This document shows, in pieces, positions 14,975-59,120 of a DNA stretch of 64,000 nt. A program made the translations under genes and the position numbers. Under the pieces are notes generated by a model. That model was not told the DNA's origin, made no database searches, and saw nothing but the letters and a program-made list of their open reading frames with translations. The stretch lies in NCBI RefSeq assembly GCF_024171735.1, contig NZ_JAMTCH010000003.1, forward strand, positions 298,841 to 362,840, read 5' to 3'. The DNA is from Prauserella alba. GTDB lineage: Bacteria > Actinomycetota > Actinomycetes > Mycobacteriales > Pseudonocardiaceae. Within the stretch, counting starts at the first letter, position 1. Every line of letters starts with the position of its first letter.

Positions 14975-15090
14975 ACGTGTGCGATGATGCCCGGGAAGCG
15001 GCCGCCGTGGAACCCGGTGCGAATCCGGGACGGTCCCGCCACTGTGACCGGCCGGAAGGCCGGGAAGTCAGAGCTTCGGTGGTCGCGGGA
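14975..15090 (+). promoter_or_regulatory. Cobalamin riboswitch ahead of the chelatase-cobO-cobB-cobC operon
   Basis: The conserved core is clear: GGGAAGC near 14993, the CCCGGTGCGAATCCGGG hairpin near 15013-15029 and the B12 box GCCACTGTGA at 15038-15047. A paired arm CCGGCCGGAAGGCCGGG and GAAGTCAGAGC follow. The element ends about 60 bp before ATG 15152, and the intervening AGGGAG is the ribosome-binding site. Adenosylcobalamin binding is expected to reduce expression of the operon. Exact outer boundaries are approximate. Confidence 0.92.
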
Positions 15091-15151: not shown

Positions 15152-17227
15152 ATGCGGCCGTACCCGTTCACGGCAGTCGTCGGAATGGGCGAACTGCGCC
15201 TGGCGCTCCTGTTGTGCACCATCTCACCGTCGATCGGCGGCGTGCTGGTGCGCGGGGAGAAGGGCACCGCGAAATCCACCATGGTGCGCGCCCTCGCGGG
15301 GCTGCTGCCCGATGTGGACGTCGTGGACGACTGCCGGTTCTCGTGCGACCCGGCGGCGCCCGACCCTTCGTGCCCGGACGGTCCACACCGGACGGCCGCC
15401 TCGTCCCAGCGACCCGCACGGCTGGTGGAACTGCCCGTCGGCGCCGCGGAGGAGCGGGTCGTCGGGTCGCTCGACCTGGAACGCGCGCTGCGGGACGGTG
15501 TCACGGACTTCCAGCCGGGCCTGCTCGCCGGCGCGCACCGCGGGATGCTCTACGTGGACGAGGTCAACCTGCTCCACGACCACCTGGTCGACACGCTGCT
15601 CGACGCGGCGGCGATGGGCCGGGTGACCGTGGAACGGGAGGGCGCGTCCGTGTCGCACGCCGCCCGGTTCGTGCTCATCGGAACGATGAACCCCGAGGAA
15701 GGCGAACTGCGGCCGCAGCTGTTGGACAGGTTCGGGCTGACCGTCGAGGTCTCGTCGAGCCGCGACGCCGCCGAGCGGGTCGAGGTCGTGCGACGGCGGC
15801 TCGCCTACGAATCCGATCCGGACGCCTTCGCTGCGGGCTATGCCGACGACGACGCCTCCCTGGCCGCCGAGATCGCCGCCGCACGCAAACTGTTGCCGTC
15901 GGTGGAGTTGACCGACGGTGCACTCCTGCAGATCGCGGAGGTGTGCGCCGCGTTCGAGGTCGACGGCATGCGGGCCGATATCGTCACGGCCCGCACCGCC
16001 GCCGCGCACGCCGCCTGGTGCGGCCGCACCGAAGTGTCTACAGAGGACATTCGGGTCGCGGCGCGGCTGGCGCTTCCGCATCGGCGCAGGCGCAACCCGT
16101 TCGACGCGCCCGGTATCGACTCCGAGCAGTTGGAGCAGGCGTTGCAGGACGCCCAACCGCCCGAGGACGACTCCGACGGCTCCGATCGCGACGGTGACGG
16201 CGACGGCCCGGACAGCGGCCCCGACGGCGGAGACGGCCCGGAGGATCCCGACGGCGGTGGGCCGGATGACGACGGTCCCGGTGGCGGGCCCGACGGCGGC
16301 CCCGGCGGGGGAATGCCCGACGAGAACCCGCAACACGAGCCCCGGAACCCGCAACACGGCGACGCGGACGCGGGGAGCGAGGACGGCGCCGCGCCGCCTG
16401 CGGAGCAGCGGGCGGGCACGGACACTCCGTACCGGGCGAAGCTGTTCACCGTGGACGGCACCGGTGCCGGTGCCGACGGCAGGCGTTCCCGTTCCGAAGG
16501 GGAGCGCGGCCGGATCGTCGGCGTCCGTCCCGACGGCGAGCGGAGCGGATCGCCGCACCTGGTCGCCACGTTGCGTGCCGCGGCCCGGCACCGGCCGCAC
16601 CGGGGTCCGCGCGCCGACGGTGCCGGACCCGTCGTGCTGCCCCGTGACCTGCGTTTCGCCCGGCGGGAGGGCAAGGAGGGCAACCTCGTCCTGCTGTGTG
16701 TCGACGCGTCCGGGTCCATGGGATCGAAAACCCGCATCCGAGAGGTGAAGACCGCGGTCCTGTCGCTGCTGCTGGACGCGTATCAGCGCCGGGACAAGGT
16801 CGGGCTCGTCACGTTCCGGGCGTCGGAAGCCGCGGTGGCGTTGCCGCCGACGAGCAGCGTCGACGTTGCGGCGACGCGGCTGGAGGAGCTGCCGACCGGT
16901 GGGCGGACCCCGCTGGCCGAAGGGTTGACGCGTGCCGCCGAGGTGCTGCGGGTCGAGGCGCTGCGGGACGGCGATCGCAGGCCGCTGCTGGTCGTGGTGA
17001 CCGACGGGCGGGCGACCAGCGGGCCGGAGGCACTGGAGCGGGCACACACCGCCGCGGACGGCCTGGCACGCACCGGAGTGTCGGCCGTGGTCATGGACTG
17101 TGAGACCGGCCGCATGCGGCTCGGCCTGGCGAAGACCCTCGCGGGCAGGCTCGGCGCCGAGCACGTGGCCGTCGGGGACGTGGCCGCGGAGAAGCTGACC
17201 GACGAGGTGAAACGGAGGGCGGCCTGA
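15152..17227 (+). CDS. Fused AAA-VWA metal chelatase subunit (ChlI/ChlD-type, cobalt)
   Basis: A 691-residue fusion of a MoxR/ChlI-like AAA+ ATPase and a C-terminal von Willebrand A domain, the actinobacterial partner presumed to drive CobN. The AAA part (residues 1-330) has Walker A GEKGTAKST, Walker B MLYVDEVNLL and the arginine-finger region TMNPEEGELRPQLLDRFG. Residues about 335-440 are an acidic Asp/Gly/Pro-rich linker. The VWA domain (about 510-691) has the MIDAS motif DASGSMG. ATG 15152 follows AGGGAG, 60 bp after the B12 riboswitch. The linker includes NPQHEPRNPQHG, encoded by two units of the 21-bp repeat family. The stop overlaps the cobO ATG (TGATG). Confidence 0.9.
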   Translation: MRPYPFTAVVGMGELRLALLLCTISPSIGGVLVRGEKGTAKSTMVRALAGLLPDVDVVDDCRFSCDPAAPDPSCPDGPHRTAASSQRPARLVELPVGAAEERVVGSLDLERALRDGVTDFQPGLLAGAHRGMLYVDEVNLLHDHLVDTLLDAAAMGRVTVEREGASVSHAARFVLIGTMNPEEGELRPQLLDRFGLTVEVSSSRDAAERVEVVRRRLAYESDPDAFAAGYADDDASLAAEIAAARKLLPSVELTDGALLQIAEVCAAFEVDGMRADIVTARTAAAHAAWCGRTEVSTEDIRVAARLALPHRRRRNPFDAPGIDSEQLEQALQDAQPPEDDSDGSDRDGDGDGPDSGPDGGDGPEDPDGGGPDDDGPGGGPDGGPGGGMPDENPQHEPRNPQHGDADAGSEDGAAPPAEQRAGTDTPYRAKLFTVDGTGAGADGRRSRSEGERGRIVGVRPDGERSGSPHLVATLRAAARHRPHRGPRADGAGPVVLPRDLRFARREGKEGNLVLLCVDASGSMGSKTRIREVKTAVLSLLLDAYQRRDKVGLVTFRASEAAVALPPTSSVDVAATRLEELPTGGRTPLAEGLTRAAEVLRVEALRDGDRRPLLVVVTDGRATSGPEALERAHTAADGLARTGVSAVVMDCETGRMRLGLAKTLAGRLGAEHVAVGDVAAEKLTDEVKRRAA
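16330..16359 (+). repeat. 21-bp repeat units inside the chelatase coding linker
   Basis: GCAACACG occurs at 16330 and 16351, exactly 21 bp apart. GCCCCGGAACCCGCAACACG (16339-16358) is identical over 20 bases to 28501-28520 in an intergenic array. The unit is in frame and encodes the heptapeptide NPQHEPR followed by NPQHG. Confidence 0.8.
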
Positions 17228-17829: not shown

Positions 17830-19163
17830 CCCGCGTCGTCATCGCCGCGCCCGGTTCGGGGCACGGCAAGACGACCGTCGCCACCGGGTTGATGGCGGCG
17901 CTCCGTGCCCGCGGCACCGCGGTGTCCGGGCACAAGGTCGGCCCTGACTTCATCGACCCGAGTTATCACGCCATGGCCACCGGGAGGTCCGCGCGCAACC
18001 TCGACCCGTTCCTGCAGGGTGAACACCGCGTCGTCCCGTTGTTGCAGCACGGGTCGAGCGGCGCCGACGTCGCGGTGATCGAAGGCGTGATGGGCTTGTT
18101 CGACGGTGCGCTCGGCACCGACGGCTACGCCTCGACGGCGCACGTCGCGCGGCTCGTCGACGCGCCGGTCGTGCTGGTGGTCGACGCGAGTGCGGCGAGC
18201 CGCAGTGTGGCCGCGCTGGTGCTGGGGTTCGCGCGGTACGACCCGGACATCGAGCTGGCCGGCGTGATCCTCAACAAGCTCGGTTCGCAGCGGCACGAGG
18301 ACGAGATCCGCGGGGCACTCGCACCGACGGGCATTCCCGTGCTGGGTGCGCTCCGGCGCAGCGACGACATCCACGCGCCGAGCAGGCACCTCGGCCTCGT
18401 CCCCGCGGACGAACGGGAGACCGATGCTCGGGAACTGCTGCCCAAACTGGCCGAGTGGATCGCCGGCGGGGTCGACCTCGACGCCGTGGTGCGGGTCGCG
18501 TGGGGGGCGCGGCCGCTGACCGCCGACCCGTGGTCGCCGGGTCCGGTCCACAGTGGGCCGCGAGCCGTGGTGGCCGCCGCGGCCGGAGCTGCCTTCACCT
18601 TCCGGTACACCGAGACCGTGGAACTGCTCGCCGCCCACGGCGTCGACGTCGTGGACTTCGATCCGCTCCGGGACGAGGCGTTGCCGCCGGAGTGTGCCGG
18701 CATGTACTTCGGCGGCGGATTCCCCGAGGCACACCTCGAGGAACTGTCGGCCAACGAACCGTTACGCACCGCGATCGGCGACGCCGTCGCCGACGGTATG
18801 CCCGCGGTGGCCGAATGCGCCGGTCTGCTGTACCTGTGCCGCGAGCTGGACGGGTTGCCGATGGTCGGTGCGCTCGACGCGACGGCCCGGATGACCCGGC
18901 GCGGCGCACTCGGCTACCGCACGGCGACCGCCGCCGGTGACAACGTCCTCGCCGCACGCGGGGACACGGCGCGCGGGCACGAGTTCCATCGCACTGTCGT
19001 CGAACCGAGAGCCGGGGAGACGGCGGCGTGGCGCTGGGACGGTGAACCGGAAGGATTCGCGACGCCGACGTTGCACGCGTCCTACCTGCACGTCCACTGG
19101 GCGGGGCATCCCGAGCTGGCGCGGGCGTTCGCGGCCGCGGTGCACCGGAGAGCGGGGCCATGA
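17823..19163 (+). CDS. cobB: Cobyrinate/hydrogenobyrinate a,c-diamide synthase CobB
   Basis: A 446-residue glutamine- and ATP-dependent amidase. Residues 1-210 form the DTBS-like ATPase domain with a P-loop in AAPGSGHGKTTVATG and the segment SGHKVGPDFIDPSYH. The C-terminal class I glutaminase has the nucleophile in AECAGLLYL (about residue 330) and the catalytic His in ASYLHVHWAG near the end. GTG 17823 overlaps the cobO stop by 7 bp, and the stop overlaps cobC by 4 bp. It supplies the diamide substrate of CobN and CobO. Confidence 0.95.
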   Translation: MVARVVIAAPGSGHGKTTVATGLMAALRARGTAVSGHKVGPDFIDPSYHAMATGRSARNLDPFLQGEHRVVPLLQHGSSGADVAVIEGVMGLFDGALGTDGYASTAHVARLVDAPVVLVVDASAASRSVAALVLGFARYDPDIELAGVILNKLGSQRHEDEIRGALAPTGIPVLGALRRSDDIHAPSRHLGLVPADERETDARELLPKLAEWIAGGVDLDAVVRVAWGARPLTADPWSPGPVHSGPRAVVAAAAGAAFTFRYTETVELLAAHGVDVVDFDPLRDEALPPECAGMYFGGGFPEAHLEELSANEPLRTAIGDAVADGMPAVAECAGLLYLCRELDGLPMVGALDATARMTRRGALGYRTATAAGDNVLAARGDTARGHEFHRTVVEPRAGETAAWRWDGEPEGFATPTLHASYLHVHWAGHPELARAFAAAVHRRAGP

Positions 19164-20209
19164 CCGGAGGCGACCGCGCCGACGGCGAGAACCACGTCCG
19201 CGACGTCGACCTGTGGCATCACGGCGACCGCGAGGTCGGCGACGGCCTCGTCGACCTCGCGGTGAACGTCCGGGTGCCGCAACCGCCGGAGTGGTTGCTG
19301 ACCGAGCTGCGCGACAGTCTGTCCACAGTGGCGGCCTATCCCGACGTTGCCGGCGCCGGGGACGCGATCGCGGCGCGGCACGGCCGCGAGGCCGACGACG
19401 TGCTGCCGACCGCGGGCGGCGCCGAGGCGTTCACACTGCTGGCGCGGGCGTGGCCCGGATGCAGACCGGTCGTGGTGCATCCGCAGTTCACCGAGCCGGA
19501 GGCCGCGTTGCTCGCGGCGGGCCACGACGTGACGCGGGTCGAGTTGCCCGAATCCGGCGGGTTCGCGCTCGACGCCGAGCTGGTTCCCGCCGATGCCGAC
19601 CTCGTGTTCGTGGGCAACCCGACGAACCCCACATCGGTGCTGCATCCGGCGGCGTCGATTCGCGCGCTGGTGCGGCCGGGCAGGTTGGTGGTCGTCGACG
19701 AGGCGTTCCTCGACGCGGTGCCGGGTGAACCGGAAACCCTTGCTCCGGAACGGATCCCGGGCGTCGCCGTGGTGCGCAGTCTGACAAAGACGTGGGGCAT
19801 CGCCGGGCTGCGCGCCGGGTACGTGCTGGCCGAGCCTGCGGTCGTCGAACGGTTGCGCGGGCTGCAGCCGCCGTGGTCGGTGTCGACTCCCGCGGCGGTG
19901 GCGATGGCGGCGTGCAGCAGACCTGGTGCCGTCGCCGAGGCCGAGACGCTGGCCCGCGAGGCCGATTCCGACCGTGAGCGGCTCGTCACGCGGCTGCGGG
20001 ACTTCGGCGTCGAGGTGGCGGGCACGCCGCGGGCACCGTTCGTGCTGGTGCGCGTGCCGCGTGGGGAGAAGATCCGCCTGGCGTTGCGCGAGGTGGGCTA
20101 CGCCGTGCGGCGCGCGGACACCTTCCCCGGCCTCGGGCCGGACTGGTTGCGCATCGCCGTGCGCTCCGACATGGACGGTTTCCTCGACGCCTTGGCGGCC
20201 CTCCTGTAA
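19160..20209 (+). CDS. cobC: CobC/CobD-type PLP aminotransferase, L-threonine-phosphate decarboxylase-like
   Basis: A 349-residue fold-type I PLP enzyme of the histidinol-phosphate aminotransferase-like group, orthologous in context to actinobacterial CobC (Rv2231c). It is thought to supply the aminopropanol-phosphate side arm. The PLP lysine is in SLTKTWGIAGLRAG, with VFVGNPTNPTSVL and VVDEAFLDAVPG typical of the family. The catalytic arginine region is DWLRIAVRSD. It is the last gene of the riboswitch operon and is followed by a 21-bp repeat array. Exact activity is inferred from cluster context. Confidence 0.87.
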   Translation: MTGGDRADGENHVRDVDLWHHGDREVGDGLVDLAVNVRVPQPPEWLLTELRDSLSTVAAYPDVAGAGDAIAARHGREADDVLPTAGGAEAFTLLARAWPGCRPVVVHPQFTEPEAALLAAGHDVTRVELPESGGFALDAELVPADADLVFVGNPTNPTSVLHPAASIRALVRPGRLVVVDEAFLDAVPGEPETLAPERIPGVAVVRSLTKTWGIAGLRAGYVLAEPAVVERLRGLQPPWSVSTPAAVAMAACSRPGAVAEAETLAREADSDRERLVTRLRDFGVEVAGTPRAPFVLVRVPRGEKIRLALREVGYAVRRADTFPGLGPDWLRIAVRSDMDGFLDALAALL

Positions 20210-20212
20210 CCG

Positions 20213-20275
20213 CATGTCCTGCACCCAGCCCCGCGTGTTCTGCATCCACACCCGCGTTTCCTGCACCCACACCCG
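20213..20275 (-). repeat. 21-bp-period tandem array, three units
   Basis: CATGTCCTGC (20213), CGTGTTCTGC (20234) and CGTTTCCTGC (20255) are spaced exactly 21 bp apart. They are reverse-orientation copies of the GCAGGACACG core. The array begins 4 bp after the cobC stop and lies between convergent genes. Confidence 0.8.
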
Positions 20276-21335: not shown

Positions 21336-21356
21336 GCAGGACACGCGGGTGTCGTC
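21336..21356 (+). repeat. Single 21-bp-family unit downstream of cobS
   Basis: GCAGGACACGCGGGTGTCGT starts at 21336, matching the GCAGGACACG units in the array at 28595. It sits 5 bp from the cobS stop, in the 157-bp gap between cobS and the thioesterase, where I see nothing else. Confidence 0.6.
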
Positions 21357-21361
21357 CCGGG

Positions 21362-22171
21362 TCAGATGCTGAGGATCACCAGCGTTGCGGCGAGGGCGGT
21401 CTCGACGCAGGCGCCGAGGACGTCGCCGGTGACGCCGCCGAGCCTGCGCACGCATCGCGCCAGCAGCACGCCAGCCGCGCACCAGCCGGTCAGCACGGCG
21501 ACCGGGCCTTGCCACCACGCGACGGCCGGGTCGAATCCGGCCAGCACCGACAGCGCCGCGACCGACAGTGCGATCGCCGCGGCGACCGGCACCGGAACCG
21601 CTCCGGCCACGGCGGCACCCAGACCCTCCGGCCGCGCCGACGGGACGAACCGGGTGCAGCACAGCGGCAGCACCACGCGGCTCGCGACCACGGCCACGAC
21701 GAGGCCCGTCACGCCGGCACCCGTGGCCACCACGCTCGCCAGCGCGCCGGTCTGGGCCAGCAGGACCAGCACCAGCGTGGCGACCCCGGTCGGTCCTGCG
21801 TCGCCGCGGCGCATGATGTCGAGCGCGCGGTCGCGGTCGTAGGACGCGCCGAGGCCGTCCGCGGTGTCGGCCAGGCCGTCGAGGTGCAGTCCGCGGGTCG
21901 CCAGTGCCGTCGTCGCGAGCGCCAGTGCCGCCACGGCGAACGCGGGCAGGCCGAGCAGCCCGCCCAGCCAGACGACGACGCCGGCCCCCACGGCGAGCGC
22001 CAGTCCCGCGAGCGGTGCCGCCGTCATGGCGACGCCCGCGATGCGGCGGTCGACCGTGCGGGGTGCGGGCACCGGCAACGCCGTCAGCGTGCCGAAGGCC
22101 ATGCGCAGGCCGTCACCGGCGGCGTGCCCGGGTGACGGATCGTCGCCGGAACCGGGAGCGGTGCCGCCCAC
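21362..22171 (-). CDS. cobS: Adenosylcobinamide-GDP ribazoletransferase CobS
   Basis: A membrane-embedded enzyme of about 269 residues that joins adenosylcobinamide-GDP to alpha-ribazole (phosphate). The signature DGLRMAFGTLTALPVP opens the domain. RGLHLDGLADTADGLGASYDRDRALDIMRRGDAGPTG carries the conserved acidic catalytic region, split here as HLDGLADTADGLG and DIMRRGDAG. Seven or so hydrophobic segments follow. The start is uncertain: GTG 22171 is used, but TTG 22189 (overlapping the cobT stop) or an ATG at the start of MAFGTLTA are alternatives. It is third in cobU-cobT-cobS. Confidence 0.9.
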   Translation of the reverse strand: MGGTAPGSGDDPSPGHAAGDGLRMAFGTLTALPVPAPRTVDRRIAGVAMTAAPLAGLALAVGAGVVVWLGGLLGLPAFAVAALALATTALATRGLHLDGLADTADGLGASYDRDRALDIMRRGDAGPTGVATLVLVLLAQTGALASVVATGAGVTGLVVAVVASRVVLPLCCTRFVPSARPEGLGAAVAGAVPVPVAAAIALSVAALSVLAGFDPAVAWWQGPVAVLTGWCAAGVLLARCVRRLGGVTGDVLGACVETALAATLVILSI

Positions 22172-26060: not shown

Positions 26061-26443
26061 CCGTTCGAGGTTAGGCCCGCCCGGCGCGGGAAGTCAACGC
26101 GATGTGGCCCGCACCGCTCGCCCTTCCCATCGTGTGTCCTGCGCCCGCCCGTCGCCCGACCACCACCCCCCAACGCCGTGCTGCCGCACGACTGCGTCCA
26201 CGCGCGTGTCCTGCATTCGGTACCCCGTTGTGCTGCCCGCGTCACCCGGCCACGACCCCGACGAGGCGCTGACCCACGGCTGCCACCCCGCGCACCAGCG
26301 CCGCCGTTTCCCGTCGTTGGCCCGTCGTCGGCACCTCGTCCGGGCCGACGCGACGGCGCAGGGCCCGCATTCCGGCCGTGCGACCGCATCACCGTCCGAA
26401 CGGGACACGGGGCGGGCGCGGGCCACGTGGCACGGGGCCGCAC
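26061..26443. repeat. Intergenic gap with degenerate 21-bp-family units
   Basis: Reverse-orientation cores TGTGTCCTGC (26133), GCCGTGCTGC (26175, 42 bp later) and CGTGTCCTGC (26205) lie in this gap, with CGTTGTGCTGCCCGCGTCAC at 26226. The last matches 19 of 20 bases with the sequence at 11524 in the erm leader. Spacing is partly off register, so the array looks decayed. From 26290 to the phosphoesterase stop I see nothing recognisable. Confidence 0.6.
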
Positions 26444-28470: not shown

Positions 28471-28636
28471 GCAACACGACCCCCGGAACCGGCAACACGG
28501 GCCCCGGAACCCGCAACACGACCCCCGGAACCCGCAACACGGGTCCCGGAATCCGCAACACGCGATCCCGGGTGCAGAACACGCGGGCACGAACGCAGGA
28601 CACGCGGGACGGGGTGCAGGACACGCGCGGCGGGTG
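28471..28636 (+). repeat. Eight-unit 21-bp tandem array
   Basis: Unit starts are 28471, 28492, 28513, 28534, 28555, 28574, 28595 and 28616; all steps are 21 bp except one of 19. The first five units open GCAACACG followed by a CCCCGGAACC-like tail. The last three open GCAGAACACG or GCAGGACACG followed by CGGG-rich tails. It fills most of the 407-bp gap between the phosphoesterase (5' side) and gltD (3' side). Confidence 0.9.
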
Positions 28637-28692
28637 GGCGCGGGCTCCGCCGGAACCGCGCCCACCCGCCGCGGGGTGTCGACCCTGTGGTG

Positions 28693-30147
28693 TTACGACA
28701 TCGGGCGGTCCGTCGGCGCGATCGGCGACGGCAGCATGTCCCGGTCGGTGAGGTACGCGTCGACGCCTGCGGCCGCCGAACGGCCCTCGGCGATCGCCCA
28801 CACGATCAGCGACTGCCCACGGCCCATGTCACCGGCCACGAACACGTTGTCCAGACTCGTCCGGAACTCCGCGTCACGCGCGACGTTGCCCCGCTCGTCC
28901 AGCTCGACGCCCAGGTCCTCGACCAGGCCCGCCTGCTGCGGCCCGACGAAGCCCATCGCCAGCAGCACCAGCTGTGCGGGCAGCTCCTGCTCGGTGCCCT
29001 CGACCGGTTCGAACCCACCGCTCTCGGCGCGCTGCACCTCGACGATCCGCAGCGCCCGCAGGTTGCCGTCGGCGTCGGCGACGAACTCGCGGGTGTTCAC
29101 CGAGTACAGCCGCTCGCCGCCCTCCTCGTGTGCCGAGGAGACCCGGTAGATCATCGGGTACGTCGGCCACGGGTGCGCCTCCGACCGCGACTCCGGCGGC
29201 TTCGGCATGATCTCCAGCTGTGTCACCGAGTTCGCGCCCTGCCGGTGGGCAGTACCCACGCAGTCCGCGCCGGTGTCGCCGCCGCCGATCACGATGACGT
29301 CCTTGCCCGCGGCGTCGATCGGGGAGACGTCCAGCTCGCCGCTCGCCACCTTGTTCGCCGGCGGCAGGTACTCCATCGCCTGGTAGACGCCTGTGGTCTC
29401 ACGGCCGGGTGCAGGCAGGTCGCGCCACGCCGTCGCACCGCCGGCCAGCACCACCGCGTCGTACTGCGACCGCAGCTCGTCCGCGGTGACGTCCACGCCG
29501 ACGTCCACGTTGGTGCGGAACTCCGTGCCCTCCGCGCGCATCTGGTCGAGCCGCCGGTCGAGGCGGTGCTTCTCCATCTTGAACTCGGGGATGCCGTACC
29601 GCAGCAACCCGCCGATCGCGTCGGCCCGCTCGAGCACGACGACGTCGTGCCCGGCGCGCGTCAGCTGCTGGGCGGCAGCCAGGCCCGACGGGCCCGAGCC
29701 GACGACCGCGACCTTCTTACCCGTCTTCGTGGTCGGCGGCTGCGGCGTCACCCAGCCTTCCTCCCACGCACGGTCGATGATCGAGATCTCGACGCGTTTG
29801 ATCGTCACCGGGTCGTCGTTGATGCCGAGCACGCACGCCGTCTCGCACGGTGCGGGGCACAGCGTTCCGGTGAACTCCGGGAAGTTGTTCGTGGCGTGCA
29901 GCCGCTCGATCGCGTCGGCCCAGTCGTCGCGCCACGTCAGCGTGTTCCACTCCGGAATCAGGTTGCCCAGCGGGCAGCCCTGGTGACAGAACGGGATGCC
30001 GCAATCCATGCAGCGGCCCGCCTGGTCCTTCAGCTTGGTGCGCTCGAAGTCCTCGTAGACCTCACGCCAGTCCTTGATCCGGATGTCGACGGGACGAGAC
30101 TTCGGCGTCTCCCGCTTCGTGTTCAGAAAACCCTTGGGGTCAGCCAT
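28693..30147 (-). CDS. gltD: Glutamate synthase small subunit GltD
   Basis: A 484-residue NADPH-dependent GOGAT beta subunit that passes electrons from NADPH through FAD to GltB. The N-terminal 4Fe-4S cysteine motifs are CMDCGIPFCHQGCPLGN and CPAPCETACVLG. The first FAD/NAD fold is VAVVGSGPSGLAAAQQL and the second VIVIGGGDTGADCVGTA. The C-terminal VFVAGDMGRGQSLIVWAIAEGR is typical. ATG 30147 is chosen over the upstream in-frame start because MADPKGFLNTKRE is the family N-terminus. It is downstream of gltB with a 116-bp gap. Confidence 0.96.
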   Translation of the reverse strand: MADPKGFLNTKRETPKSRPVDIRIKDWREVYEDFERTKLKDQAGRCMDCGIPFCHQGCPLGNLIPEWNTLTWRDDWADAIERLHATNNFPEFTGTLCPAPCETACVLGINDDPVTIKRVEISIIDRAWEEGWVTPQPPTTKTGKKVAVVGSGPSGLAAAQQLTRAGHDVVVLERADAIGGLLRYGIPEFKMEKHRLDRRLDQMRAEGTEFRTNVDVGVDVTADELRSQYDAVVLAGGATAWRDLPAPGRETTGVYQAMEYLPPANKVASGELDVSPIDAAGKDVIVIGGGDTGADCVGTAHRQGANSVTQLEIMPKPPESRSEAHPWPTYPMIYRVSSAHEEGGERLYSVNTREFVADADGNLRALRIVEVQRAESGGFEPVEGTEQELPAQLVLLAMGFVGPQQAGLVEDLGVELDERGNVARDAEFRTSLDNVFVAGDMGRGQSLIVWAIAEGRSAAAGVDAYLTDRDMLPSPIAPTDRPMS

Positions 30148-44396: not shown

Positions 44397-45488
44397 ATGC
44401 GCGTACTGGCCGCGATGAGCGGAGGTGTCGACTCGGCGGTGGCGGCGGCGCGTGCCGTCGAGGCCGGGCACGACGTGACGGGTGTGCACCTGGCGCTGTC
44501 GGCGAAGCCCGGCACGCTCCGCACGGGTGCGCGGGGCTGCTGCACCATCGAGGACTCCCGCGACGCCCGCCGCGCCGCCGACATCCTCGGCATCCCGTTC
44601 TACGTGTGGGACTTCGCCGAGCGGTTCACCGAGGAGGTCGTGGAGACCTTCGTGGGTGAGTACGCCGCAGGGCGGACGCCCAACCCGTGTGTGACCTGCA
44701 ACGAGAAGATCAAGTTCGAGGCGCTGCTGGAGAAGGCGATCGCACTCGGCTTCGACGCGGTGTGCACCGGGCACTACGCCAGGCTGTCCGTTTCCGGTGG
44801 CGTGCCGGAGCTGCGCCGTAGCGCCGACGACCACAAGGACCAGTCGTACGTGCTGGCCTCTCTCACACCGCAGCAGCTGCGGCACGCCATGTTCCCGCTC
44901 GGCTCCTCACGCAAGCCCGACGTGCGGGAGGAGGCGGCCGAGCGCGGACTGGCCGTGGCCGAGAAGCCCGACAGCCACGACATCTGCTTCATCCCCGACG
45001 GCGACACGAAGCAGTTCCTCGAGAACCGGCTGGGCGAGCGCCCTGGCGACCTCGTCGATGCCGAGACCGGTGCCGTGCTGGGGCAGCACACCGGCGTTCA
45101 CGGCTTCACCGTCGGCCAGCGCAAGGGCCTCGGCATCGACGCGCCCGCGCCCGACGGCAAGCCGCGGTACGTGCTGTCGCTGGAACCGGTGTCCGGAACG
45201 GTGAAGGTGGGTTCCTCCCAGGAACTGTCGGTGTCCACGATCGACGCCGACCGCGCGATCTGGCCGTCGGAGCAGCCGCTGTCCGGCCCGACCGAGTGTG
45301 TCGTGCAGGTGCGCGCGCACGGCGGCATGGCACCGGCCGTGGCCGAGGTCGACGGGGACGCCGTGCGGATGTCGCTGCGCGAACCGCTGACCGGTGTCGC
45401 GCCGGGGCAGGTCGCGGTCCTCTACCGCCCCGACGCGGAAGAAGGCGACGTCGTCCTCGGCAGCGCGAAGATCTCGGCCACGGCGTAG
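44397..45488 (+). CDS. mnmA: tRNA-specific 2-thiouridylase MnmA
   Basis: A 363-residue ATP-pyrophosphatase that thiolates U34 of tRNA Lys/Glu/Gln. The PP-loop is [12 protein letters not shown]. The catalytic cysteines are in [12 protein letters not shown] and [11 protein letters not shown], with [12 protein letters not shown] between them. [20 protein letters not shown] belongs to the C-terminal beta-barrel region. ATG 44397 follows AGGAGGCATGAGGTC. Sulfur comes from the adjacent cysteine desulfurase. Confidence 0.96.
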
Positions 45489-45516
45489 CCCCGCGCGCGT
45501 CCCGCGTCCGGAACCG

Positions 45517-45568
45517 CGTGTTCTGCGTTCGGACACGCATGTTCTGCGTCCGGCACGGCGTGTCCTGC
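45517..45568 (-). repeat. 21-bp-period array, three reverse units
   Basis: CGTGTTCTGC (45517), CATGTTCTGC (45538) and CGTGTCCTGC (45559) are exactly 21 bp apart. The array begins 29 bp after the mnmA stop and mirrors the one after cobC. Confidence 0.85.
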
Positions 45569-45681: not shown

Positions 45682-45807
45682 GCCAACACGGCCCCCGGAG
45701 GGCGCAACACGGCCCCCGGAGAGTGCAACACGGCCGGGAATCTCCGTTTCGGTTGCTGCGCGGGCGCAGGACACGCGGTGCTGGGTGCAGGACATGCGGG
45801 TGTTGAA
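45682..45807 (+). repeat. 21-bp-period array, forward units
   Basis: CAACACGG cores at 45684, 45705 and 45726 are followed by GCCCCCGGAG-like tails. After a decayed stretch, GCAGGACACG at 45766 and GCAGGACATG at 45787 resume the 21-bp spacing. It fills the gap before the acyl-CoA synthetase and is oriented opposite to the array at 45517, so the two face each other. Confidence 0.85.
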
Positions 45808-45878: not shown

Positions 45879-47519
45879 ATGTCGAACGCAGGCAACGCCG
45901 GCTCGAGCGCTACCGCGCCGGGCGGTGCCATCCACAACGGCGCCGCGGCGGGCGGTATCCGGTCCAGCACGATCGCCGACATCCCGCGGCGCAGCGCCTC
46001 ACGAACGCCGCACCGGGTGGCGGTCCGGTTCGCCGATCGCACGTGGACCTACGCCGAGCTGGACGCCGCCGTCACGCGCGCCGCCTCGTACCTGCTCTCG
46101 TCGGGCCTGAACCACGGTGACCGCGTGGCCGCGTACGGCAAGAACTCCGACGCCTTCCTCATCGGATTCCTCGCCTGCGCCCGTGCGGGCCTGGTGCACG
46201 TGCCCGTCAATTACAACCTCACCGGTGACGAGCTCGACTACCTGATCACCCAGTCGGGCAGCCGCATGGTGCTCGCCGACCCGGCGCTGCGGCCCAACCT
46301 CGACGCTCTCGACCTGTCCGTCGAGCGGATCCTGCCGCTGCGGGACGAGAACGATTCGCTGCTGGCGATCGCGAGCACCGGAGACGTTCCGGACCTCGAC
46401 GCCGAACTCGACACCCCGGTCGCGGACACCGATCTCGCCCAGCTGCTGTACACGTCCGGCACGACGTCGAAGCCCAAGGGCGCGATGATGACGCATCGCG
46501 CGCTGGTGCACGAGTACCTCTCGTGCATCGTCGATCTCGATCTCACCGCCGACGACGACCCGCTGCACGTCATGCCGCTGTACCACTCGGCGCAGATGCA
46601 CGTGTTCCTCGTGCCGTGGCTGGCGGTGGGCGCGTCCAACACGATCGTCGAGACGCCCGACCCCGCCGACATTCTGCGCCGGATGGCCGACGACCGGCAC
46701 GGGGCGTTCTTCGCCGCGCCGACGTTGTGGGTCGCGCTGGCCAATCACGCGGACTTCGGCAGTCGCGATCTGTCGGCGCTGCGCAAGGCCTACTACGGTG
46801 CGTCGATCATGCCGGGGCCGATCCTGCAGCGCCTCCGCGAGAAGCTGCCGGACCTCGGGTTCTACAACTGTTTCGGCCAGTCGGAGATCGGCCCGCTTGC
46901 CACGGTGTTGCGCCCCGAGGACCACGACACGCGTCCCGAGTCCGCCGGCCGTCCCGTGCTGTTCGTCGAGGCGCGGGTCGTCAACGGTGACGGCAACGAC
47001 GTCGCGCCGGGCGGCGAGGGCGAGATCGTCTACCGCTCGCCGCAGCTGTGCCTGGGGTACTGGGACAAGCCGGAGGAGACGGCCGAGGTCTTCGGCGGCG
47101 GTGGGGGAGGGGGTGCTCCGGCCGATGAGGGTGTAGCCGGCGGGTGGTTCCACTCCGGGGACCTGGTGCGAGTGGACGAGGAGGGTTACATCTTCGTCGT
47201 CGACCGCATCAAGGACGTCATCAACACCGGCGGTGTCATGGTGGCCTCGCGGGAGGTGGAGGACGCGCTGTACACCCACCCGTCGGTCGGGGAGGTGGCC
47301 GTGGTGGGCCTGCCCGACGAGAAGTGGATCGAGGCCGTCACCGCCGTCGTGGTCCCCAAGGACGACGGCCTGCCCGACGAGGACGAGTTGACGCAGTGGG
47401 TCAAGGATCGACTGTCGGCGTTCAAGGTGCCCAAGCAGGTGCACTTCGTCGACGATCTGCCGCGCAACGCGTCCGGCAAGATCCTCAAGCGGGAACTCCG
47501 AGACCGCTTCAGCGGCTAG
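45879..47519 (+). CDS. Acyl-CoA synthetase (AMP-binding family)
   Basis: A 546-residue ANL-superfamily adenylating enzyme that activates a carboxylic acid as acyl-AMP and then acyl-CoA. The AMP loop is LLYTSGTTSKPKGAMMTH (near residue 190). FYNCFGQSEIGPLA is the A5-like motif, HSGDLVRVDEEGYIFVVDR the hinge, and NASGKILKREL holds the catalytic lysine near the end. A Gly-rich insertion FGGGGGGGAPADEG lies just before the GWFHSGD block. ATG 45879 follows GGAGGAG. Its chain-length specificity is not predictable. Confidence 0.88.
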   Translation: MSNAGNAGSSATAPGGAIHNGAAAGGIRSSTIADIPRRSASRTPHRVAVRFADRTWTYAELDAAVTRAASYLLSSGLNHGDRVAAYGKNSDAFLIGFLACARAGLVHVPVNYNLTGDELDYLITQSGSRMVLADPALRPNLDALDLSVERILPLRDENDSLLAIASTGDVPDLDAELDTPVADTDLAQLLYTSGTTSKPKGAMMTHRALVHEYLSCIVDLDLTADDDPLHVMPLYHSAQMHVFLVPWLAVGASNTIVETPDPADILRRMADDRHGAFFAAPTLWVALANHADFGSRDLSALRKAYYGASIMPGPILQRLREKLPDLGFYNCFGQSEIGPLATVLRPEDHDTRPESAGRPVLFVEARVVNGDGNDVAPGGEGEIVYRSPQLCLGYWDKPEETAEVFGGGGGGGAPADEGVAGGWFHSGDLVRVDEEGYIFVVDRIKDVINTGGVMVASREVEDALYTHPSVGEVAVVGLPDEKWIEAVTAVVVPKDDGLPDEDELTQWVKDRLSAFKVPKQVHFVDDLPRNASGKILKRELRDRFSG

Positions 47520-58458: not shown

Positions 58459-58962
58459 ATGTTTGCTCGGCCTTCGTGGCGTGAGGTCGGCGGGCTCGCG
58501 GCTGCGGTGCTCGCCGTCGTCTCGCTGCTGCTGCCGTGGACCGTGTTGTCCTCCGAGGATCCCGCGGTGCGGTCGGCGCTCGCCGAACTGCCGGCCGACG
58601 ACGTCACCCGTTCCGTGTGGCGGGCGACGTTCCTCGGCTGGTTCCCGCCCCTGCTCATCGTGGCCCTCGGCGTCACCGTCGCCGCTGCAGGCCGGATCCG
58701 TGCCGCGCGTACCGGCGGCCTTCCGCAGTTGTGGCTCATCGGCGCCTGTCTGGCGCTGCTGTGCGCAGTGCTCGGCTGGCTGTTCGCCGACTGGCAGTTC
58801 GGCAGCGAGGAACGCGCCGTGCTCGAGGCGGGCGGTGTCACCGTCGACGCCGCCATCGGCCGCTACCTCGGCATGCTCGCCGTCGTCGCGAGTGCCGTCT
58901 TCGCCGCGATCGACACCCGGGCGCTCCACGGCGAGACGCGCCGCAGCCGCCCCGCCCGATAA
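58459..58962 (+). CDS. Small membrane protein of unknown function
   Basis: A 167-residue protein with four hydrophobic segments: GLAAAVLAVVSLLLPWTVL, FLGWFPPLLIVALGVTVAAA, LWLIGACLALLCAVLGWLFA and YLGMLAVVASAVFAAI. The first loop and the C-terminus are charged. ATG 58459 has GGAGGG 9 bp upstream. The layout resembles actinobacterial four-helix accessory membrane proteins, but I do not recognise a family. It stands alone between gatB and a 21-bp repeat array. Confidence 0.72.
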   Translation: MFARPSWREVGGLAAAVLAVVSLLLPWTVLSSEDPAVRSALAELPADDVTRSVWRATFLGWFPPLLIVALGVTVAAAGRIRAARTGGLPQLWLIGACLALLCAVLGWLFADWQFGSEERAVLEAGGVTVDAAIGRYLGMLAVVASAVFAAIDTRALHGETRRSRPAR

Positions 58963-58969
58963 CAGCCCC

Positions 58970-59030
58970 CGTGTTGCGCTTCTGGGGCGCCGTGTTGCGT
59001 TTCGCGGGGCTCGTGTTGCGTTCTCGGGGG
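58970..59030 (-). repeat. 21-bp-period array, three reverse GCAACACG units
   Basis: CGTGTTGC occurs at 58970, 58991 and 59012, exactly 21 bp apart, each followed by a G/T-rich tail (GCTTCTGGGGCGC type). It starts 8 bp after the membrane-protein stop, in the gap before the convergent lppZ gene. Confidence 0.87.
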
Positions 59031-59120
59031 CGGGGCGGCGGTCACGCGCTGTCCCGCCGTCGGCCACGGTCCGTCCGGTCGCCACGGCCGCTCATACGGC
59101 GCCGAACCGGCGGCCACCGG

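Follow-up and report, generated by a model that had tools for sequence, protein, structure and literature searches.

Arrays of 21-bp direct repeats at gene ends in Prauserella alba and related Pseudonocardiaceae

Several classes of bacterial repeats resemble the arrays reported here, which were analyzed in a 64,000-nt stretch of the Prauserella alba genome (hereafter, the window) and in related genomes. REP/BIME elements are intergenic, lie at the 3′ ends of genes in many copies, are palindromic and come with RAYT transposases. The arrays are likewise intergenic, found at 3′ gene ends and present in many copies; when the unit profiles were inspected by eye, the core was not seen to recur in inverted form within the unit. 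A RAYT/REP system was rejected, as a Y1 transposase domain (Y1_Tnp, PF01797) was found in only two of seven Prauserella genomes, in one copy each. In plasmid iterons, direct repeats spaced at close to two helical turns are contacted by an initiator on one face of the DNA. The arrays are also direct repeats with a near-two-turn step, but they are dispersed over the chromosome at many gene ends, whereas iterons cluster at an origin by the rep gene. Nor do the arrays resemble intrinsic terminators, with their GC hairpin and T-run: folding of the arrays is weak, and a search for a terminator-like site at the array behind gltD found none. The STAR elements of staphylococci are, by description, interspersed intergenic direct repeats (PMC3532100), and the likeness of the arrays to them is one of description only.

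The closest described class is that of Subirana and Messeguer. In the portion of their report available to us, repeats of 20-21 or 52 nt are of constant size and variable sequence, their function is not known, and the shorter, 20-21-nt class also occurs in Actinobacteria (PMC8161180). The authors suggested either small RNAs or a protein whose polymerisation along the DNA requires a fixed repeat size (PMC8161180). The same line of work includes, from what is available of each, a 2019 survey (PMC6749651) and a follow-up study on the transcription of the Bacillus coagulans satellites (PMC8625621). The remark in the original prediction that no named system built on such a step was known needs correcting, since both constant-size, variable 20-21-nt repeats and the idea of a polymerising protein are found in that text (PMC8161180). 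The arrays share with these repeats, as far as the available description goes, a constant 20-21-nt step, a non-coding location, several families per genome and a short core. Their size is constant across families and species, and their sequence is variable, with two families (A and B) of one length, genus-specific tails and a mostly non-coding placement. Their short characteristic sequence is ACACG, which was also our search key; the lag scan described below was free of this key, in regions that outside the P. alba genome were chosen for their arrays. Set against the four-repeat detection limit given in the available text of PMC8161180, the gltD array has eight units and many of the 39 arrays of P. 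alba have two or three. Linkage to stop codons, orientation, polarity, conserved positions, a pan-genus core and depletion of indels are features of the arrays that are absent from that description in the part available to us. The repeat class has already been described, and what is newly added is its tie to gene ends. A fixed 20-21-nt size with a changing sequence in some bacteria is a puzzle to which the arrays give an address, in the form of defined gene ends, a core, a polarity, conserved positions in relatives and array-free sister genomes, and their study could lead to a nucleoid or termination factor of a new class.

Arrays in the window

An eight-unit array lies at positions 28471..28636 on the minus strand, behind a gltD-like gene (28693..30147, minus strand; Pyr_redox_2 and Fer4_20 domains). 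Read in the sense of gltD, it consists of three B units (CGTGTYCTGC..) followed by five A units (CGTGTTGC..); in the orientation used originally, the two types read GCAACACGGNCCCCGGAATCC (A) and GCAGRACACGCGGNNCTGAGT (B). The core is CAACACG at 28472, 28493, 28514, 28535 and 28556, CAGAACACG at 28575, and CAGGACACG at 28596 and 28617. ACACG first occurs at 28474 and is repeated every 21 bp up to 28621, which confirms the eight head-to-tail units with an exact 21-bp step that had been predicted at 28471-28636. The register is set by ACACG and not by GCA, as the GCA-to-GCA distance is 19 at the border between A and B units. A GC-rich hairpin without a T-run (28626..28673, minus strand, identified by folding) separates the array from the gltD stop, and similar inverted repeats were seen by eye ahead of the array in G006, G003, G005, G002 and G004. 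When five stretches were folded, this hairpin (28632-28692) gave a z of -3.2, two arrays gave -2.0 and -1.9, and the other two were near 0.

The related arrays predicted at 20213, 45517, 45684 and 58970 are all real, with the first partly decayed and the second carrying one altered core. Three B units, partly decayed and with CGTGT in the sense of the gene, are found at 20210..20275 (plus strand), 3 nt past the stop of a cobC-like aminotransferase gene (19160..20209, plus strand; PF00155). Another three B units, the middle one with a CATGT core, occupy 45510..45568 (plus strand) behind the stop of mnmA (44397..45488, plus strand; tRNA_Me_trans domains). Facing them at 45683..45800 (minus strand), upstream of an AMP-binding gene (45879-47519), is an array of three A and two B units in the opposite orientation, which adjoins the 3′ end of no called gene and whose A and B parts are 43 apart rather than 42. 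Three A units at 58968..59031 (plus strand) have their first core 7 nt past the stop of a gene (58507-58962) for which no Pfam match was obtained. The single units predicted at 21336 and 54676 were recovered, the former as a B unit at 21336..21345 (minus strand) behind cobS (21362-22102, minus strand), but the core reported at 26133 was not; close by, CACACG is present at 26131 (minus strand) and a single B core at 26205. The exception to the non-coding placement is a pair of A units at 16330..16380 (plus strand), within the AAA-lid/VWA linker of a chelatase-like CDS (15152-17227). An AdoCbl riboswitch at 14998-15086, which precedes the chelatase-like gene and the cobalamin genes, was the sole Rfam match in the window, and none was obtained for the arrays.

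Spacing, unit sequence and distribution

In the P. alba assembly (G000; 5.61 Mb in 11 contigs), exact GCAACACG-N13-GCAACACG dyads numbered 200 as compared with 0 for the backward control, and 93 triples were present. Distances between GCAACACG pairs were counted in an 863-kb sample (C1:1-462800 and C2:1000001-1400000), the C2 part of which had been picked because the dyad count had shown it to be rich in dyads; a distance of 21 was found 57 times, as against 2 for 20, 1 for 19, 0 for 22 and 1 for 23. A motif-free lag scan, which counted any repeated 6-mer in intergenic DNA per 10 kb, gave the same period. Lag 21 exceeded lags 20 and 22 in all 12 array-bearing sets, with 64 vs. 19/16 in P. alba, 144 vs. 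1/5 in G210, 112 vs. 3/3 in G030, 127 vs. 8/4 in G026, and 85-248 vs. 0-27 in six congeners; lag 42 was above lag 21 in G003 and G004. The signal was weak in G262 (140 vs. 101/86) because of a high background. As the regions scanned outside P. alba were chosen around gltD or known arrays, the scan gives the period without the motif and not its frequency. In family members free of pattern hits, lag 21 was far smaller (13 vs. 2/8 in G033; 20 vs. 8/9 in G018), and in G042, a member of the order outside the family, lag 21 was not in excess (4 vs. 2/5). The finding that 21-bp spacing is commoner than neighboring spacings (57 pairs vs. 0-2, and the lag scan) upholds the original prediction on a point at which it could have failed. 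In G015, where lag 21 gave 110 vs. 11/13, a 27-bp period was stronger still; this strong intergenic period was seen at C4 520001-600000.

The step is held more tightly than the sequence of the units. Among consecutive Prauserella cores no more than 32 apart, 124 of 132 are exactly 21 apart (0.94). In array-free intergenic DNA, comparisons between species gave 103 indel events to 743 substitutions over 5706 aligned bases, a ratio from which ~54% of steps would be expected to stay at 21 at the observed divergence. The ratio ranged by species from 0.022 (G004) to 0.231, and the lowest value would leave ~90% of steps at 21 by chance alone, which makes the extent of indel depletion uncertain. Adjacent A tails (93 pairs) differ at 4.51 of 13 positions and random A pairs at 5.04, and 4 of the 93 adjacent tails are identical. 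Simple expansion of one unit was rejected on this ground, neighbors being almost as different as random A units; the units are held to one consensus throughout the genome and are not recent duplicates of their neighbors. In a comparison of 12 unit sets, the positions shared besides ACACG, itself the search key, were C10, G13, R14-15, G18 and R21, and the consensus is otherwise genus-specific. These pan-genus positions are not all on one face of the helix, and breaks in the spacing show no preference for helix-equivalent steps.

A pattern search by taxon showed, among the matches listed, a clustered pattern in Prauserella and mostly single matches in scattered taxa, which we took for chance. 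The GCAACACG dyad was present in five of six congeners, whereas 29 other genomes of the family and 24 of the order had none. An element restricted to Prauserella, as this dyad had suggested, was overturned by a looser pattern of three ACACG at 21-bp steps, which was found in 80 of 297 family genomes and had no match in the other 217. By our reading of the table, at least 20 such triples occurred in 32 genomes of eight genera, with changing tails; the backward control gave 0 in most genomes and at most 29. In G001, the congener that lacks GCAACACG dyads, 331 ACACG triples were counted. Outside the family, a four-unit pattern was found in 7 of 391 actinomycete genomes, with one to three matches at one place in each. 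The other outcome against which the original prediction had been set, arrays missing from sister strains and matching a simple expansion of one unit, was not observed.

Two side observations concern distribution. The backward control GCACA gave 29, 54 and 20 matches at 21-bp steps in G162, G616 and G184, respectively; therefore, other 21-bp arrays with a different core, or 7-residue coding repeats, exist. Within P. alba, A-type dyads and triples are uneven, being dense at 227-570 kb of C1 and 1.0-1.46 Mb of C2 and sparse elsewhere on C1-C3. The first 240 kb of C3, with dnaA at 32 kb, lack an A triple, and the first A triple does not occur before 244 kb.

Placement and conservation at gene ends

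Arrays were placed relative to genes called by a simple codon-usage script rather than a curated annotation. The P. alba set consists of 39 arrays in the 863-kb sample, in which two arrays are halves of one in two cases. The upstream neighbor is in the same sense in 30 of the 39. Since this is automatic in convergent gaps, distance to the stop is the test there, and the matched stop was the nearer one in 18 of 20. At codirectional junctions, 10 arrays are sense and 5 antisense, CGTGT in the sense of the gene being preferred; one of the five antisense arrays follows an in-frame TGA missed by the gene caller. Three more arrays lie in divergent gaps and one inside a gene. The heads of 37 of 38 arrays are intergenic, and 27 of these 37 have a same-sense stop no more than 100 nt away, as compared with 17% of random intergenic points. 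Single cores differ in that 64 of 94 lie in genes, and 9 of the 30 in intergenic DNA have a same-sense stop at that distance. Where a sense array follows a gene, its first core is 3-107 nt past the stop (150 were allowed) and no more than 36 nt past it in 20 of 26. Among arrays that start at least 40 nt past the stop, four of six have a stem of at least 12 ahead of them, vs. 20% of 211 control ends.

The neighboring gene is also informative. Sense arrays were found at 0 of 122 ends facing a codirectional neighbor 60-200 bp off and at 10 of 134 facing a convergent one; with the neighbor further off, the counts were 9 of 112 (codirectional) and 7 of 58 (convergent). Arrays thus mark ends of transcription units, and most gene ends have none. 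In ten genomes of eight genera, including Prauserella, 59 distinct arrays were placed, all of them outside genes; the loci were those returned by the search, and some were assigned to genomes by output order, in agreement with overlapping listings. The upstream neighbor is in the same sense in 47, not so in 9, and at an edge in 3. The matched stop is nearer in 17 and farther in 6 of the convergent gaps, the codirectional junctions hold 16 sense and 6 antisense arrays, 3 arrays are in divergent gaps, and in 11 cases a neighbor is missing. Sense orientation is only a preference. Coding repeats of 7 codons were rejected, as the arrays lie at varying distances behind stops and, by eye, in no single frame.

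Mixed arrays tend to be polar. In P. alba, the B type is next to the stop and is followed by A in 7 arrays vs. 3 of the reverse order (6 vs. 3 with a stricter chain). All mixed arrays begin with B in G005 (2/2) and in G015, of another genus (5/5), and a B-like type comes first in G078 (5/5, one mixed within) and G030 (2/2, one mixed), while G026 and G210 have one mixed array each, which starts with A. In 20 regions of G262 that were chosen for their arrays (L293-L312), facing arrays occur in both orders, 12 as > < and 4 as < >. Those of G262 occupy gaps between convergent stops, often at a near-constant distance, and can form long hairpins. In the 863-kb sample, only three pairs have a facing partner within 400 bp, and most Prauserella arrays have none. 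A separate observation is that P. alba arrays on C1 and C2 that are no more than 3 kb apart in the arrangement << >> point inward in seven of seven cases (7 vs. 0) and enclose short segments. Insertion of a gene cassette between inward arrays was rejected, as the enclosed genes of two segments are present in relatives (gene 11 in 6/6; genes 24 and 26-28 in 5/5; gene 25 in 4/5).

The ends that carry arrays are conserved. For 70 gene ends in two syntenic regions of seven species, both chosen to contain arrays, the probability of an array in one species given an array in another was 0.69 (144/209 ordered pairs) and the base rate 0.089 (37/418 cells), the 37 including two likely chance matches in coding DNA of G001, at gltD and at 337965; a value of 0.69 was reached in none of 1000 shuffles. 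The array behind the gltD ortholog is also present in G006, G005, G002 and G004, with identical units in G002, and degenerate cores remain in G003. Four intact units follow cobC in G006, arrays of 2 and 3 units follow cobS in G005 and G002, respectively, and arrays follow mnmA in G003, G005, G002 and G004. The junction at 45683..45800 has facing arrays in G002, G003, G004 and G005 as well, the end at 58968 has four units in G005 and none in G002, and the chelatase-like linker carries an array in G003, G005 and G004. Copy number thus differs between species. At the ends of genes 10 and 12 of C2, G001 has a CGTGTCAGCACCCCACGTCGC unit where P. alba has CGTGTTGC or CGTGTYCTGC, and in G015 the gltD stop is followed by a folded hairpin and then by five units that differ again in sequence, the same architecture as in the window. 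Units are thus exchanged at a constant place and step. Comparison of orthologous ends across genera covered 19 confident gene pairs, and both positives are one locus, this gltD of G015, a set too small to generalize from that case. As a side note, the gltD homolog of G001 (L186) is interrupted by an internal TGA into two overlapping pieces, which may be an assembly error.

Taken as a whole, the arrays are real, strong and functional-looking, and closeness to stop codons, preferred orientation, two polar unit types, conserved ends and occurrence in eight genera all go beyond what was originally predicted. As properties of the DNA sequence, the exact step, the length constraint, the polarity, the stop linkage, the conservation of positions with turnover of units and the spread in the family are established.

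Possible modes of action

The favored reading of the arrays, plausible though just short of probable, is that they are helix-phased sites for a putative multimerising DNA-binding protein that would insulate the 3′ ends of transcription units or form a barrier there. A protein ligand, its action on DNA and not on RNA, and the barrier role are our inferences. A sequence-specific, multimerising protein may occupy the phased rows behind stops at the ends of transcription units, where each 21-bp unit, being two turns of B-DNA, would repeat its contacts on one face of the helix, and adjacent subunits could line up into a short filament that is in most cases polar. Such a bound row would halt RNA polymerase running past the gene or coming from a convergent neighbor; alternatively, the complex would hold the twisting stress that accumulates at a 3′ end. 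A consensus shared by hundreds of places and drifting by genus, combined with a strict length, is as expected from co-evolution with a sequence-specific protein that binds side by side, for which two helical turns would be the natural step, and the places where arrays are found suit a barrier or insulator that closes transcription units. Counting against this reading are the antisense arrays, the two orders of facing arrays in G262, the uncertain extent of indel depletion, pan-genus positions that are not all on one helix face, spacing breaks without a preference for helix-equivalent steps, and the many gene ends and family genomes that have no array. A broader form of this proposal, in which a putative filament-forming protein would seal 3′ ends throughout the family as a chromatin-like cap, the sites co-evolving while geometry and ends stay fixed, is possible but rather doubtful.

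The arrays might instead act in the transcript, with CGUGU every 21 nt loading a multi-site RNA-binding factor, e.g., a Rho-like one, that ends or protects the RNA. The preferred sense orientation, the closeness to stop codons and the location at ends of transcription units are all in keeping with such an element, but a strict 21-nt spacing is unexpected for a flexible RNA. The mean fold z of the 39 arrays is only -0.54, with no strong general signal. Some arrays (4/6) lie behind strong hairpins and so may often not be transcribed; moreover, antisense and divergent arrays exist, and both orders of facing arrays occur in G262. We consider an RNA element unlikely, and DNA is favored because of the strict length, the arrays behind strong hairpins, the antisense arrays and the two orders in G262. 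To this extent the original preference for phased binding at the DNA level over RNA folding is supported by the weak folding of the 39 arrays, with a protein as the putative ligand.

The same constancy of length weighs on a mutational or selfish origin, in which a minisatellite without host function arises through slippage and unequal crossing-over at the ends of genes and its units are spread from locus to locus by conversion. Variation in copy number between species, the identical units of some arrays (gltD of G002) and the 4 of 93 identical adjacent A tails are what such a process leaves behind. Adjacent units are, however, nearly as different as random ones, indels are depleted and the step is 21 throughout the genera scanned, and the places of the arrays follow stop codons and are shared between species more often than chance allows, all of which make a minisatellite quite improbable.

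Phased repeats at 3′ ends may also attract gyrase or a supercoil-sensing nucleoid protein. In E. coli, REP elements have been proposed as gyrase or topology sites where positive supercoils collect at 3′ ends, and the location of the arrays at convergent and terminal gene ends and their two-turn phasing would suit the same role. Gyrase is generally regarded as universal, however, whereas the arrays are limited to part of one family, and a genus-specific consensus is hard to reconcile with it; we regard a topology site as no less improbable than a minisatellite. A hairpin terminator made of facing arrays, as suggested by the long stems into which those of G262 fold between convergent stops, is very improbable, since most Prauserella arrays have no facing partner within 400 bp and the folding signal is weak. 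WhiA, which has a GACAC site and is widespread in actinobacteria, was considered as a candidate and set aside, the arrays not being widespread.
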